Part shown: positions 749-11,161 of the stretch, piece by piece
Layout: each line of letters opens with the position of its first letter
How positions within the stretch are numbered: position 1 is the stretch's first letter
Virus record (IMG/VR): IMGVR_UViG_3300050016_000038
Coordinates: 1 to 25,391 of that record
Origin: a virus
Strand: one strand, 5' to 3'
DNA length: 25,391 bases
Program-made: the position numbers and the translations under genes
Notes under the pieces: model-generated
Database searches by the model: none
What the model was told of the DNA's origin: nothing
Seen by the model: only the letters and a program-made list of their open reading frames with translations

Positions 749-2031
749 TCGCCGTCGATAAATTCCGGCAGGCGGCGCGCGCAGGCAAGAAGCCTGACGC
801 TGCCGTCTTTCGGGTCAGTGTCGGCGATACCGTCACCCTTGAAGGAGACAGACGGGCTGTCCGCTTCTGCTTCAGTGACGGCTCGGTCGATCGCATGGGC
901 GATACGATCGCCGCGGACGGCTGGGAAACGACTTCGTTCTCGAAGAACCCCGTGGCGCTGTGGGCTCATGACAGCTCGCAGCCGCCGATTGGCCGAGCGA
1001 GCAATATCGCGGTCGAGAACGCCCGCCTCATGGGCGATATCGAGTTCATGGAAGCGGACCTCTACCCGTTTGCCGACCTCATCTACCGGATGGTGCAGGG
1101 CAAATACATCAGCGCCGTGTCGGTCGGCTTTATGCCGCTCGATTACGACTTTGCCGATGACTCGGCGCGGCAGCGGGGTATCGATTTCAAGCGTCAGGAA
1201 TTGCTCGAAATTTCAGTCTGCCCCGTTCCGGCGAACGCCAACGCGCTGATCGACGCGCGGGCGAAGGGCATCGACACCCGCCCCTTGGTCGAGTGGGCCG
1301 AAAAGATGCTGGACGGCGGCGGCCGAGTGATTTTGCCGAAAGCCGAGCTTCAACGCTTACGAGACGCGGCAAAGGAGCCGAAATTCCGCCTCGATCCCAA
1401 AATTGTCGGGGAATCGGAGCAAAACATCCGTGACATCGCTGGAGTGCTCGTTATGGCGACGAAACCGAAATCAACCAAGCCGCAGCGCCGCGATACCGAC
1501 GTCGATCCGCTCGACAGCACCGATATTCCGGGCGATGGCGATGTGATGGGCAATTGCGGCCGCCAGCCCGGCGAAGAATGCGGCATGAAGAATTCCGAGG
1601 AGTGCATGGTCCACAAATCGGACCTTCCTGACGACGGGACCAATCCAATGGACGAAAAGCGCCTCCAGGTCATGATCGACAAAGCCATCGCCGCGGCTCT
1701 TCGCCGTTTCGCGGCAAAGCGGGTCGTTGTCCGCGATGCCGATGGCGACACCGACGACGACACGCCGGGGCACGAGGAAGAATTCCGCTCGGCTCACATG
1801 CACTTCAAGATGGCGCAGGACTGCTACGACGCCGGCGACGACCTGCACGACAAGGGCATGAAGTGCATGAAGCGCGGCCTCAAGGCGATGGACGAGAACG
1901 GCGTCGAAAACGAGCCGGAGCCCGAGGTCGAGCCGAAGCCGGAAGAAAAAGACGATGAGCCGGCCGACGATGACGCGGTCGCAAAAGCCAAGGCGAGAGC
2001 ACGAGTAAGAACGCTGCTCGCCGCCGCCTAA
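736..2031 (+). CDS. HK97-type prohead protease with a long C-terminal extension
   Basis: This is the maturation protease that cleaves the capsid delta domain inside the procapsid. Residues about 40-175 match the caudoviral serine prohead protease family: a WAHD block with the likely catalytic His78, an SAVSVGF block with the likely nucleophile Ser129, and the family signature LLEISVCPVPANANAL with Glu158. Relatives are usually about 180-250 residues, whereas this protein has 431. The extra 200 residues hold a Cys-containing stretch (Cys274, 282 and 290), a second His/Met/Cys-rich segment near 354-378, and an acidic Glu/Pro/Asp tail. The extension could act as a built-in scaffold or be a fused unrelated domain. 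No strong Shine-Dalgarno precedes ATG 736, so coupling to an upstream reading frame is possible. The family call is firm; the role of the extension is unknown. Confidence 0.9.
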   Translation: MSDLIAVDKFRQAARAGKKPDAAVFRVSVGDTVTLEGDRRAVRFCFSDGSVDRMGDTIAADGWETTSFSKNPVALWAHDSSQPPIGRASNIAVENARLMGDIEFMEADLYPFADLIYRMVQGKYISAVSVGFMPLDYDFADDSARQRGIDFKRQELLEISVCPVPANANALIDARAKGIDTRPLVEWAEKMLDGGGRVILPKAELQRLRDAAKEPKFRLDPKIVGESEQNIRDIAGVLVMATKPKSTKPQRRDTDVDPLDSTDIPGDGDVMGNCGRQPGEECGMKNSEECMVHKSDLPDDGTNPMDEKRLQVMIDKAIAAALRRFAAKRVVVRDADGDTDDDTPGHEEEFRSAHMHFKMAQDCYDAGDDLHDKGMKCMKRGLKAMDENGVENEPEPEVEPKPEEKDDEPADDDAVAKAKARARVRTLLAAA

Positions 2032-2058
2032 AGCCAACCGAACACACGACTTAACCCA

Positions 2059-2080
2059 CCCCGCCTCGCGCGGGGTTTTT
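2059..2080 (+). terminator. Intrinsic terminator between protease and capsid gene
   Basis: A perfect 6-bp stem CCCCGC/GCGGGG (2059-2064 and 2070-2075) with a 5-nt loop is followed at once by five T residues. It sits 28 nt after the protease stop and before the capsid leader. A terminator here should lower read-through from the protease, or mark the end of a processed transcript, so that the capsid message is made or dosed separately. Confidence 0.75.
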
Positions 2081-2091
2081 GCTGCCCGTCA

Positions 2092-2151
2092 GCCGCCTGG
2101 GCACCGGCACCGCAGCGTCGGACGACGCCGCATCCCACGATGGAGCCTCTC
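2092..2151 (+). promoter_or_regulatory. Two-hairpin leader, copy A (capsid gene)
   Basis: The structured 5' leader of the capsid gene. Hairpin P1 has a GCCG/CGGC stem (2092-2095, 2105-2108) around the 9-nt loop CCTGGGCAC. After the linker ACC comes hairpin P2: an outer GC/GC pair, an A/C mismatch, then GCGTCG/CGACGC (2115-2120, 2123-2128). The innermost pair probably opens to give a GCGTC stem with a tetraloop. A GGAG ribosome site follows, 6-7 nt before ATG 2152. Related leaders precede the genes at 3607 and 9377, with base changes that keep the stems paired. It is probably an RNA element controlling translation or stability of abundant virion messages; a DNA-level role is not excluded. Confidence 0.65.
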
Positions 2152-3516
2152 ATGGCGAAACTGGCAGACCTCCTCGCCGAGCGAGGGGCTATTTCTGACG
2201 AAATGAAGGCGCTTCCGGAGAGCGATGACTTCACACAAAAGAAGTTCGACGCTCTTGAAACGCGGTTTAAGGCCGTCAACGACAACATCCGCGCTGTCGA
2301 GCGGTCCCGCGAGGTTCAGGCCCAGCTTGCCCAAGCGAGTGACGGCAGCGATGTGCGCGGAGCGGAGAAGCTCGCCTCCCCGGTTCCGCTGCCGGCTCGC
2401 GATCAGCGCCGCGGCTGGGATGCGGACGACTACCTGAGCTTTGCCCGGCAGCGCACCGGTTTCCGGCCACAGCCCGACAAGCATTTCAAGACTCTCGGCG
2501 AGCAGCTGCTGGCGGTCGCGAAATACTACCTGCCCGAACACCGGCACATGGATGCCCGGCTCGTGCGCGCTCCGACAGGCGGAAGCGAGATGGACCCGTC
2601 GACCGGCGGCTTCCTGGTGCAGACCGACTTCTCGACCGCGATCTTCCAGCGCGCCTATGACCTCGGCGAAATCCTCTCCCGGGTGCAGAAGCTGACAATC
2701 TCGTCCAACGCCAATGGAATCAAGATCCCTGGCGTCGACGAGACCAGCCGCGCAACCGGTTCCCGCTGGGGTGGCGTTCAGTCCTACTGGGTTGCGGAGG
2801 GCACGAGCGTCACGGCAAGCAAGCCGAAGTTCCGCCTGATCGAGCTCGACCTCAAGAAGATGATGTCGGTGATGTACGTCACCGACGAGCTTCTGGCCGA
2901 CGCCTCGATCCTCAGCTCGATCGCCACGCAAGCGTTCTCGGAAGAAATCGTCTTCATGACCGAGGACGCGATCTGGGAAGGCACCGGCGCCGGCATGCCG
3001 CTGGGCATCCTCTTGGCCAACGCCACGGTATCGGTCGCCAAGGAAACCGGCCAGGCCTCCGCGACCCTGACGTACACCAACATTCTGGCGATGTGGTCCC
3101 GGATGTGGGCGCGTTCGCGGCAGAATGCCGTCTGGTTCATCAACCAGGACGTCGAGCCGCAGCTCTATTCGCTCAGCCAGGTCATCGGCGTGTCCGGCGT
3201 CCCGGTGTACCTGCCGGCAAACGGCATCTCGGGGGCGGCTTACGGCACCCTCTTCGGCCGGCCGGTCATTCCCATAGAGTACGGATCGACCCTCGGCACG
3301 GCCGGCGACATCGTTCTCGCGGACATGAGTCAGTATGTGCTGGCCGACAAAGGCGGCGTCGACTCGCAGTCAAGCATGCACGTGGCGTTTCTGACCGATG
3401 AGATGGTGTTCCGCATCACCTATCGGGTCGACGGGCAGCCTCTGTGGAACAGCGCGCTGACGCCGTTCAAGGGCAGCAGCACCAAGTCGCCGTTCATTAC
3501 TTTGGCGGCACGCTAA
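2152..3516 (+). CDS. HK97-fold major capsid protein with N-terminal delta domain
   Basis: The main head shell protein, 454 residues from ATG 2152. An in-frame ATG at 2140 exists, but aligning its leader with those of the genes at 3607 and 9377 places GGAG as the ribosome site and 2152 as the start. Residues 1 to about 75 are charged and predicted coiled coil (the ADLLAERGAISDEMKAL region), typical of the scaffolding delta domain that the protease removes. The capsid core begins around residue 149 with the family-typical DPSTGGFLVQTDFS. The N-arm, E-loop, P-domain and A-domain order fits HK97-like proteins, and the C-terminus ends SPFITLAAR. The gene lies directly after the prohead protease, as in most HK97-type phages, and has its own terminator-flanked leader, which suggests separate high expression. 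Confidence 0.93.
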   Translation: MAKLADLLAERGAISDEMKALPESDDFTQKKFDALETRFKAVNDNIRAVERSREVQAQLAQASDGSDVRGAEKLASPVPLPARDQRRGWDADDYLSFARQRTGFRPQPDKHFKTLGEQLLAVAKYYLPEHRHMDARLVRAPTGGSEMDPSTGGFLVQTDFSTAIFQRAYDLGEILSRVQKLTISSNANGIKIPGVDETSRATGSRWGGVQSYWVAEGTSVTASKPKFRLIELDLKKMMSVMYVTDELLADASILSSIATQAFSEEIVFMTEDAIWEGTGAGMPLGILLANATVSVAKETGQASATLTYTNILAMWSRMWARSRQNAVWFINQDVEPQLYSLSQVIGVSGVPVYLPANGISGAAYGTLFGRPVIPIEYGSTLGTAGDIVLADMSQYVLADKGGVDSQSSMHVAFLTDEMVFRITYRVDGQPLWNSALTPFKGSSTKSPFITLAAR

Positions 3517-3533
3517 CTCCTCGTGAATTACTC

Positions 3534-3606
3534 GGGGTTGCTGGTGTAGCCCCGGCATCCCGCAGCGTCGTGAGGCGCCGCATTCCCTAGAAGGAGGCCA
3601 CTCACC
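3534..3606 (+). promoter_or_regulatory. Two-hairpin leader, copy B (gene at 3607)
   Basis: The same kind of leader as the capsid gene. P2 is present as an outer GC/GC pair, an A/C mismatch, then GCGTC (3565-3569), loop GTGA, and GGCGC (3574-3578). The stem holds through one T-G wobble although its sequence differs from copy A. Upstream lies a different hairpin, GGGGTT/AGCCCC (3534-3539, 3548-3553) with one wobble, in place of copy A's P1. A strong AAGGAGG site follows P2 and precedes ATG 3607. Confidence 0.6.
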
Positions 3607-4092
3607 ATGGCTCGACAGTACAGTTTGCCACAGCACCAAAAGATCGTGCAGATGCTGCCCCCGCAGACGACGAACGCGGCGGTCAGTTCTCAGGTCATCA
3701 GCCTGAAGAACGCCCACAAATGCTGGGTGGTCTTCGACTTCCTCAACGCTGTTGGCTTTGCGTCGGTCCCGACCCTCAACCAGGCGACCAGCATCGCCGC
3801 CGGCACCAACAAGGCCGGCCCGACAGTGCCGATCTGGGCGAACGAGGACACCGCGGCGACCGACACGCTGGTCAAGAAGGCCGACGCCGCGTCCTACACG
3901 ATGACGAACGACATCAAGCATAAGCAGGTCGTGTTCGAGATCGACCCGTCGCGGCTCGATGTCAACAACGGTTACGACTGCATCTATTTCACGATGGGCA
4001 CGTCGAGCCAGGCGACCAACTTCGTCTCGGCGACCGCGTACCTGATGCAGCGGTATCCGCAGGCGACACCGCCGAGCGCGATCCTGGACTAG
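3607..4092 (+). CDS. Probable head decoration or minor virion protein
   Basis: This 161-residue protein starts at ATG 3607 behind a strong AAGGAGG site. I do not recognise a named family. The sequence is beta-rich, with no signal peptide and no membrane segment, and it has alternating hydrophobic strands (HKCWVVFDFLNAVGFASV, KQVVFEIDPSRLDV, CIYFTMGTSS). Its place right after the capsid gene, and the fact that it shares the capsid's special leader, suggest a protein made in large amounts, such as a head decoration or cement protein. The 139-nt gap that follows holds a G-rich stretch, a possible GGCGG/CCGCC stem and a 9-bp direct repeat GACTTTTGC (4200-4208 and 4222-4230), but no clear terminator. 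The virion role is inferred from position and leader, not from homology. Confidence 0.75.
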   Translation: MARQYSLPQHQKIVQMLPPQTTNAAVSSQVISLKNAHKCWVVFDFLNAVGFASVPTLNQATSIAAGTNKAGPTVPIWANEDTAATDTLVKKADAASYTMTNDIKHKQVVFEIDPSRLDVNNGYDCIYFTMGTSSQATNFVSATAYLMQRYPQATPPSAILD

Positions 4093-9307: not shown

Positions 9308-9376
9308 TGCTGCCTGGGCAACAGCACCGCTAGCGTCGGATGACGCCGGCCATCCATCTCGAATGGAGCCCGTCAC
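9308..9376 (+). promoter_or_regulatory. Two-hairpin leader, copy C (tail sheath gene)
   Basis: The leader shared with the capsid gene. P1 has a TGCTG/CAGCA stem (9308-9312, 9322-9326) around the loop CCTGGGCAA; compared with copy A, one C-G pair has become T-A while the loop stays almost the same. After the linker CC comes P2: an outer GC/GC pair, an internal loop TA/CG, then GCGTC (9333-9337), loop GGAT, and GACGC (9342-9346). A GGAG ribosome site then precedes ATG 9377. The two-sided changes support an RNA structure. Confidence 0.65.
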
Positions 9377-11161
9377 ATGCCTGTCCCGTTTCAGCAGATC
9401 CCGGCCAATATCCGCGTACCTCTCTTCTATGCGGAGGTGGACCCGAGCCACGCCAACACCAACGAGCAGACCTATCGATCACTGCTGATCGGCCAGCTGC
9501 TGCCCAGCGGGACGTTGGCGTCGGTTGCCAACCTGACGACCAATGCAACCACGGCATCGGGCGCAGCCGTTTTGCATTTCGTGGCGGGACCGGTCGGGGT
9601 TGTCCCCGGCATGGTCGTCACCGACACGACCGCGCCCACGGTCATCCCGGCGAACACGACCATCCTCTCGGTCGACACGACCGCACATACCGCGACGATG
9701 TCCGCGAACGCAACCGGTGCGGGTGTCGGCGGGACCGATGCGCTGGTGTTCACCACGCCCTACACGCCAAACCCGATCCTCATCACCAGCAAGACGCAGT
9801 GCGACGGGTTGTGCGGCATCGGGTCGATGCTATCAAACATGGTCGCGGTTTATCGGGCGAACGACGCATTCGGCGAGATCCGCATCCTGCCCCTTCCCGA
9901 CGATCCCGCCGCTACAGCGGCAACGGGGACGATCACTTTCGGCGGTACCGCAACCGCGCAGGGCGTTCTCTCGCTCTACATCGACGGCACGCTGATCCCG
10001 ACGGTCATTACCACGTCAATGACGCCGACGCAGATGGCGACCGCCGTTGCGGCGAACATCAATCTCGCGAGCGACCTTGAAGTGACGGCGTTGGCGTCGG
10101 CAGCGGTTATTACCCTCACGGCGCGCAACAAGGGCGCGGTCGGGAACGATATCGATTTCCGCCTCAACTATCTCGGTTCTATGCAAGGCGAGGTTACGCC
10201 TGCTGGCGTGACCGTAGTGCTCTCGACCCTGAGCGGGGCGGTGTCCGGCGCGGCGACACTGACAGGGGGCGCAACCAACCCGTCGACGGCCCTCACGACG
10301 GCGCTGAACACGCTTCCCGAGGACAATTACGACTTTATCGCGCAACCCTACAGCGACACGACCTCGCTCGACGCATTCAAGACGTTCCTCAACGACATAA
10401 CGGGTCGCTGGGCGTGGTCGCGGATGCTCTATGGCCATGCGATGACGGCGAAGCGCGGCACTGTCGGCACCCTCACGACCGCGGGGCTGCTGCGCAACGA
10501 TCAGCACCATTCGATCATGGGCTTTTACGACAGCCCGACCGCGCCGCATGAATGGGCAGCGGCTATTGCCGGGGCCGTGGCAACGAGCACCCGCGCCACA
10601 ACCGGTCTCGGGCGCCCGATGCAGACGGTGCCGCTGGTCGGCGTCAAGGCTCCGCCGCGGGTGTCCCGGTTCATCCTCACCGACCGCAACACGCTTCTGT
10701 GGTCCGGCATCTCGACTTTCATGGTTGCGCAGGACGGCACTGTCGCGCTCGAAAACCTGATCACGACGTACCAGCTCAACGCCTTCGGCCAGCCCGACAA
10801 TTCCTATCTCGAAATCGAGACGCTGTACCTCCTGGCGTACATCCTGCGGTTCCTCAAGACGCGGGTGACGACCAAGTTCCCGCGCATGAAGCTCGCGAGC
10901 GATGGCACCCGCATCCCGGCAAACAGCGGCATCGTCACGCCATCGATCATCAAGGCGGACCAGATCGCGGCATTCTTCGATCTCGAAGCCCTCGGGGTTG
11001 TGCAGGACGATGTCGATTTCGTAGACGAGATCATCGTTGAGCGCGACTTGGTCAATCCAAACAGAGTAAATATTCTTTGGCCGGGTACGCTTTGCAACCA
11101 ACTGCGCATCTTTGCCTTGCTGGCACAGTTCCGCCTGATACCTGACTCGCTCGCCGCATAA
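9377..11161 (+). CDS. Contractile tail sheath protein (Mu gpL-like)
   Basis: This 594-residue sheath subunit contracts to drive the tube through the envelope. The N-terminus 'FQQIPANIRVPLFYAEVDPSHAN', 'YRSLLIGQ', 'NMVAVYRANDAFGEIRILPLPD', 'LPEDNYDFIAQPYSDTTSLDAF' and the C-terminal 'LRFLKTRVTTKFPRMKLASDGT' and 'PNRVNILWPGTLCNQLRIFALLAQFRL' parts match the Mu-type sheath family. Mu gpL is about 495 residues. The excess is largely explained by an insertion of about 80 residues (about 52-130) between SLLIGQ and ILITSKTQ that resembles the C-terminal extension of the tail terminator at 7659. The gene lies after DUF2635 and before the tube gene and has the special leader shared with the capsid gene. 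Confidence 0.93.
   Translation: MPVPFQQIPANIRVPLFYAEVDPSHANTNEQTYRSLLIGQLLPSGTLASVANLTTNATTASGAAVLHFVAGPVGVVPGMVVTDTTAPTVIPANTTILSVDTTAHTATMSANATGAGVGGTDALVFTTPYTPNPILITSKTQCDGLCGIGSMLSNMVAVYRANDAFGEIRILPLPDDPAATAATGTITFGGTATAQGVLSLYIDGTLIPTVITTSMTPTQMATAVAANINLASDLEVTALASAAVITLTARNKGAVGNDIDFRLNYLGSMQGEVTPAGVTVVLSTLSGAVSGAATLTGGATNPSTALTTALNTLPEDNYDFIAQPYSDTTSLDAFKTFLNDITGRWAWSRMLYGHAMTAKRGTVGTLTTAGLLRNDQHHSIMGFYDSPTAPHEWAAAIAGAVATSTRATTGLGRPMQTVPLVGVKAPPRVSRFILTDRNTLLWSGISTFMVAQDGTVALENLITTYQLNAFGQPDNSYLEIETLYLLAYILRFLKTRVTTKFPRMKLASDGTRIPANSGIVTPSIIKADQIAAFFDLEALGVVQDDVDFVDEIIVERDLVNPNRVNILWPGTLCNQLRIFALLAQFRLIPDSLAA

Follow-up and report, generated by a model that had tools for sequence, protein, structure and literature searches.

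A modular, structured RNA leader preceding genes for abundant virion proteins of tailed phages

The viral DNA analyzed here (IMG/VR record IMGVR_UViG_3300050016_000038; the whole stretch of 25,391 nucleotides is referred to as the window) contains three virion genes, each preceded by a pair of small hairpins, which raises the question of whether these hairpins belong to a functional RNA element and, if so, at which step of gene expression it acts. The original prediction, made from the sequence alone, described structured leaders before the genes for the capsid, a decoration-like protein, and the tail sheath, and all three copies are present as described: leader A at positions 2092-2154, leader B at 3534-3609, and leader C at 9308-9379. 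Hairpin P1 is common to copies A and C, with the different stem sequences that had been reported; hairpin P2 is present in all three copies, with GGCGC in B in place of the GACGC strand; and each leader contains a GGAG ribosome site (Table 1).

Table 1. Coordinates of the leaders, the adjoining hairpin P0, and the genes behind the leaders in the window
Feature	Positions	Strand	Description
P0, terminator-like hairpin and T run	2058..2080	+	directly upstream of leader A
Leader A, hairpin P1	2092..2108	+	GCCG/CGGC stem, 9-nt loop CCTGGGCAC (consensus CYUNGGCAA); P1 covariation in relatives
Leader A, hairpin P2	2112..2131	+	GC-A-GCGTC loop GGAC GACGC-C-GC; inner stem 100% paired in 57 relatives
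Leader A, 3' part	2132..2154	+	ATCCC box, conserved GATGGAGCC Shine-Dalgarno block, capsid start ATG 2152
Major capsid gene (HK97-type), behind leader A	2140..3516	+	phrog_10, E 2e-43 (major head protein); likely start 2152
Leader B, B-type hairpin	3534..3553	+	GGGGTT loop GCTGGTGT AGCCCC
Leader B, hairpin P2	3562..3581	+	GC-A-GCGTC loop GTGA GGCGC-C-GC; 28.4 bits
Leader B, 3' part	3582..3609	+	ATTCCC box, AAGGAGG Shine-Dalgarno, CTCACC, start ATG 3607
161-aa protein gene, behind leader B	3607..4092	+	predicted jelly roll, decoration/cement-like candidate
Leader C, hairpin P1	9308..9326	+	TGCTG loop CCTGGGCAA CAGCA
Leader C, hairpin P2	9329..9350	+	GC-TA-GCGTC loop GGAT GACGC-CG-GC
Leader C, 3' part	9351..9379	+	CATCC box, AATGGAGCC Shine-Dalgarno block, start ATG 9377
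Tail sheath gene, behind leader C	9377..11161	+	phrog_165, E 1e-158

Leader A stands before the capsid gene as described; the ATG at 2140 belongs to the conserved GATGGAGCC block, so that 2152 is a likelier gene start than 2140. The 161-aa protein encoded behind leader B has no PHROG match and is kept behind the capsid gene in many relatives. Its AlphaFold model is all-beta (mean pLDDT 84) and can be superposed on jelly-roll proteins of phages, namely YomS (Z 12.2), the Bordetella phage cement protein 3j4u (Z 8.8), and a capsid chain of Agrobacterium phage 7-7-1 (Z 8.8); on the strength of this model, “decoration-like” is a reasonable label for a candidate.

The folding energy of the three copies is unremarkable (z -0.5 to -1.5, not significant), and the significance of the leader comes from relatives. 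A model built from 57 leaders, which includes A and C and excludes B and was trained mostly on other phages, matches exactly three places in the window, at 53, 48, and 28 bits, the last being copy B, with the next best match at 7 bits. Both P1 loops of the window carry the unusual CCTGGGCA.

An initial alignment of 12 leaders (R1), the rows of which were padded with N to hold the stems in register and which therefore leans towards structure, had 92% of its cells paired and double-sided changes at 9 of 12 pairs, with at most 47% paired in slid controls. The covariation check proposed in the original prediction was then passed by a MAFFT alignment of 57 diverse leaders made without regard to structure, in which 99.1% of the cells at 8 pairs are paired and 103 changes are double-sided; the shuffle control gave 0 of 500, and slid controls reached at most 52% paired. 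For P1, 97 leaders were anchored ungapped on the loop, and pairing at positions 1-4 amounts to 100%, 100%, 98%, and 80%, where position 1 is fixed by the search pattern and the shuffle means at positions 2, 3, and 4 are 50, 59, and 44 of 97; C-G, G-C, U-A, A-U, and G-U pairs all occur. The covariation is unchanged when a single leader is kept per 40%-identity gene cluster, and a compensated change separates two related cultured phages, phiLM21 having GCCC/GGGC and RHph_N28_2 GCAC/GTGC around CTTCGGCAA and CTTAGGCAA. P1 and the inner stem of P2 are conserved by covariation, as befits a structured cis-acting leader.

Other parts of the leader are conserved as well. The P1 loop is more strongly conserved than its stem, a short YGCCY stretch lies between P0 and P1, and the GAUGGAGCC block of the ribosome site equals the hairpins in conservation, as does its spacing. 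In nearest-neighbour folding, P1 is present in only about 11% of the ensemble, and the Shine-Dalgarno sequence is no more open in the leaders than in shuffled ones. Because energy folding rarely predicts P1, the support for this hairpin is comparative, and P1 may be held by something beyond simple stability, for example an unusual loop, the binding of a factor, or folding during transcription. A pseudoknot between NGGC of the P1 loop and GCCN after the ribosome site was considered and rejected, since C or T follows GGAGCC whatever the loop N; several P1-only leaders, moreover, have no GCC. Separately, the UUCC box that follows P2 could pair with GGAG of the ribosome site in a weak hairpin over the Shine-Dalgarno sequence (2132-2147 of the window and related leaders), a pairing beyond the reach of covariation because there is hardly any variation on either side.

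IMG/VR contains at least 186 relatives of the capsid protein, and upstream of many of their genes the same layout recurs: a stem with the CYUNGGCAA loop, a GNRA-type hairpin or two of them, a UUCCC box, GATGGAGCC, and ATG. Additional copies, detected with the R1 model, precede tail-tube genes (L085, L100, L107, L111, L113) and, within the same records, small virion-type genes; a covariance model had been called for in the original prediction, and its wider matches indeed precede capsid and tail genes across relatives. Two pattern scans of IMG/VR, each giving a lower bound on abundance, together yielded more than 220 copies, which derive from many metagenomes; the carriers amount to hundreds of phages that otherwise differ, a good many of these being phages of alphaproteobacteria. 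The first pattern, CCTTNGGCAAG-N(20-50)-TGGAGCC-N(3-9)-ATG, had at least 125 matches, and all except 2 of the matches listed are real leaders; those listed stand before 20 protein families, some of which PHROGs place in nine types of major head protein and some in several types of major or minor tail protein, the others having no known function. The second pattern, which covers P1 and P2 without any ribosome site (CCTTGGGCAAG-N(6-20)-CGTCGTGA), gave at least 103 new matches, nearly all of which precede a ribosome site and a virion-type gene, with the start codon mostly 56-68 nt downstream, or 80-94 nt where a second P2-like hairpin is inserted; the reversed pattern, run as a control, had a single match.

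Across these copies, the downstream genes fall into about 20 unrelated families, nearly all of them major head, major tail, scaffold, head/decoration, or unknown small virion-like proteins, plus the sheath. Where an upstream frame was found, its stop codon usually lies within about 60 nt of P1 or overlaps it, which leaves little space for a promoter. The leader is an element of the sense strand at a fixed place before one class of genes, those for abundant virion proteins, again as for a structured cis-acting leader. As a separate observation, 101 of 102 scan-2 leaders (e.g., L291, L317, L319) contain a GCC triplet in the last 18 nt ahead of the start, and the triplet is kept even with a shifted Shine-Dalgarno sequence (GGAGCC, GGAGGCC, GGAGTGCC); it seems to be conserved apart from GGAG and is often missing in P1-only leaders.

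P1 and P2 had been taken as one two-hairpin element, and their separability into modules was overlooked. P1-only leaders occur in seven capsid relatives (L016, L019, L021, L022, L024, L025, L072) and in three cultured phages, namely Rhodobacter RcapNL, where the leader spans 9885-9928 ahead of the major tail gene, Sinorhizobium phiLM21, and Rhizobium RHph_N28_2, and P2-only leaders were found in L113 and at L121:5633, so the two hairpins may have different roles. P1 is present in 22 of 46 capsid relatives; since about half lack it, it is inessential for capsid production. Eight capsid relatives without P1 (L004, L005, L010, L014, L015, L023, L114, L115) have an alternative upstream hairpin, CCCT(GCC)...(C)TGGCGAGGG, with GGC paired with a local GCC, possibly as a related element or as a replacement.

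Copy B is a hybrid: it does share P2, as had been noted, and its other hairpin, with loop GCTGGTGT, which had gone unrecognized, is a separate conserved structure and not a degenerate P1. This B-type hairpin, YGCTGGTGTR, has covarying stems and occurs with CACC next to ATG in at least six relatives (sites: L002 4312, L003 4449, L027 4415, L028 2645, L114 11407, L211, L448). In the window, the loop GGTG is complementary to CACC at 3603-3606, adjoining the start codon, and relatives without the GGTG loop mostly lack CTCACC, too; a start-codon pseudoknot is possible on this sequence evidence.

Host genomes were searched with a second model, R2, which would miss P1-only copies in chromosomes. Among 297 genomes sampled from the order to which Roseiarcus belongs (Rhizobiales), 9 have convincing copies, as do 4 of 200 from the order of an Acetobacteraceae genome (Acetobacterales), and a 398-genome sample of the whole phylum contained none beyond the starting genome. 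All strong chromosomal matches lie before capsid or tail genes of prophages. Six weak matches of 27-32 bits (L274, L275, L278, L279, L286, L287) look like chance, and a 22-bit match in phage 16-3, antisense inside a gene, was likewise taken as chance, which makes the R2 E-values optimistic. Two Acetobacterales genomes (L284, L285) show a P2-like hairpin with TCCC and GGAG before genes for proteins of about 47 aa (DGRRIYARHFGLKAF / DGKKIYARDHGLKGF).

Among 50,697 cultured phages, a BLAST search with the leader, too insensitive for so short an element, gave no match, and the cultured carriers were found by inspecting the sequence upstream of protein matches. Rhizobium phages 16-3 and RHph_TM3/Y3 have homologous capsids and a different leader, itself conserved and structured, with GTAGTCACCCGGCA...AGCCGGAGGGC and flanks GCAGGAC/GTCCTGC (L408 3875-3995, L410 875-995, L411 875-995). 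P1 was not seen in the upstream sequences displayed for gene-transfer-agent-like tail genes of 17 alphaproteobacterial genomes. Four otherwise different phages, G034, G039, G057, and G060 (L402-L404, L405-L407, L394-L396, and L399-L401, respectively), have in common a conserved protein, radical-SAM-like by eye, in which an IEW(A/T)DAT-type motif at the N-terminus precedes a set of closely spaced cysteines.

The leader had been thought to be unnamed in RNA catalogues, and no Rfam 15 family reaches the gathering cut-off in the window; when four leader-bearing loci and window positions 1900-3650 were searched by E-value, only unrelated low scores resulted. No description of the leader was found in the open-access literature, the coverage of which was incomplete so that an earlier description is possible, and PMC8040213 makes no mention of capsid or tail motifs.

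That the leader lies in sense orientation, is linked to the ribosome site, comes shortly after a stop codon, and is found with genes for the most abundant virion proteins points to action at the level of mRNA, on initiation, 5' stability, or both; judging from sequence, translation, stability, or processing, as originally suggested, is the most likely functional class. We consider it probable that the leader is a modular cis-acting 5' element that acts via host machinery to set how strongly the most abundant virion proteins are translated, how stable their mRNAs are, or both. Its parts would be P1, a 4-5 bp hairpin presenting the fixed 9-nt loop CYUNGGCAA; P2, one hairpin or sometimes two in tandem with a GNRA-like loop; and, after P2, a UUCCC box and the GAUGGAGCC ribosome site 6-10 nt before AUG. 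Acting in cis on the mRNA, the leader would raise and/or time translation initiation, and it would protect the 5' part of a message cut from a late polycistronic transcript. The P1 loop would be read by an alphaproteobacterial host factor and not by a phage protein: in the available stretches of the seven leader-bearing phages compared, no protein is common to all (BLASTP E<1e-4, at which distant homologues could be missed), which makes a common phage regulator unlikely and, together with the unrelated target genes, favours a host factor.

The same features bear on several alternatives. If the leader were a processing or stability site, an endonuclease would cut between P0 and P1, and P1 and P2 would shield the new 5' end to give long-lived capsid and tail mRNAs; the RNase III sites of phage T7 and the T4 gene 32 leader are precedents. 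The leaders are intra-operonic, the upstream region folds at -10 kcal or below in 117 of 119 leaders (in GC-rich DNA), 16 of 119 related leaders have a terminator-like hairpin and T run upstream, and the conserved YGCCY stretch separates P0 from P1; however, P0 varies in form, and the GAUGGAGCC block and its spacing, needless for a pure stability element, are conserved like the hairpins, and we rate this account as a somewhat unlikely one. An operator for a phage-encoded RNA-binding regulator, repressing or synchronizing virion gene translation like the coat-protein hairpin of RNA phages, seems unlikely by a greater degree. P1 can be drawn as a stem with a bulged C, two U-A pairs, and an NGGC tetraloop, its loop is conserved above the stem with the unusual CCTGGGCA in both loops of the window, and one phage has the same hairpin at several unlinked virion genes. 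Autogenous binding, however, would restrict the hairpin to the binder's own gene and cannot explain about 20 unrelated downstream families; the absence of a protein common to the seven phages and the variation of the loop N between copies within one phage also weigh against it.

Action on RNA polymerase as an antitermination element, comparable to the two-hairpin put RNAs of HK022, would fit two adjacent hairpins in a late operon, sometimes beside terminator-like hairpins, but the element keeps a fixed distance to ribosome sites and recurs before selected genes instead of operon starts, which renders this reading improbable. For a DNA-level element without RNA function, a promoter or protein-binding palindrome, speak the conserved sequence directly upstream of genes and the ability of a palindrome to mimic a hairpin; yet the stem bases vary freely while staying complementary, G-U pairs in P1 exceed A-C on the sense strand (13 versus about 3), and the element is in every case oriented in sense and linked to the ribosome site, so that this possibility is scarcely credible.

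Beyond the cis-acting leader itself, we tentatively propose that an RNA module read by the gene-expression machinery of alphaproteobacterial hosts has spread across unrelated tailed phages as a “virion gene” tag that singles out the most abundant capsid and tail proteins for high late translation. If true, this would be a widespread RNA family carried by phages and read by the host. Phages need capsid and tail tube proteins in great excess over other proteins of the same operon, and a single leader common to unrelated virion genes of hundreds of phages would explain in general how many alphaproteobacterial phages achieve this. It would also point to a host factor that recognizes the hairpin with the CYUNGGCAA loop, serve as a marker when the main capsid and tail genes of dark phage genomes are annotated, and be of use as a portable element for expression in alphaproteobacteria.

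Several known systems resemble the leader in part. The leaders of T4 gene 32 and T7 gene 10 and RNase III sites are phage 5' hairpins that stabilize mRNA or promote translation, and here, too, hairpins lie just upstream of the ribosome site of abundant phage proteins; the T4 and T7 leaders are specific to one phage lineage or gene, whereas here one loop is common to about 20 unrelated virion families in many phages. The MS2/R17 coat-protein operator is likewise a small hairpin with an invariant loop, possibly with a bulged base in the present case, near the ribosome site of a virion gene, but the leader lies 40-60 nt upstream of the start and not over it, serves unrelated proteins, and is known here from sequence. 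HK022 put RNA shares the two neighbouring hairpins in a phage transcript and acts on RNA polymerase with no tie to ribosome sites, unlike the leader. Finally, ribosomal-protein leaders and other cis-regulatory families in Rfam have, as here, a covarying structured 5' UTR before one functional class of genes; the leader differs from them in matching no Rfam 15 family and in that its gene class is that of virion proteins.
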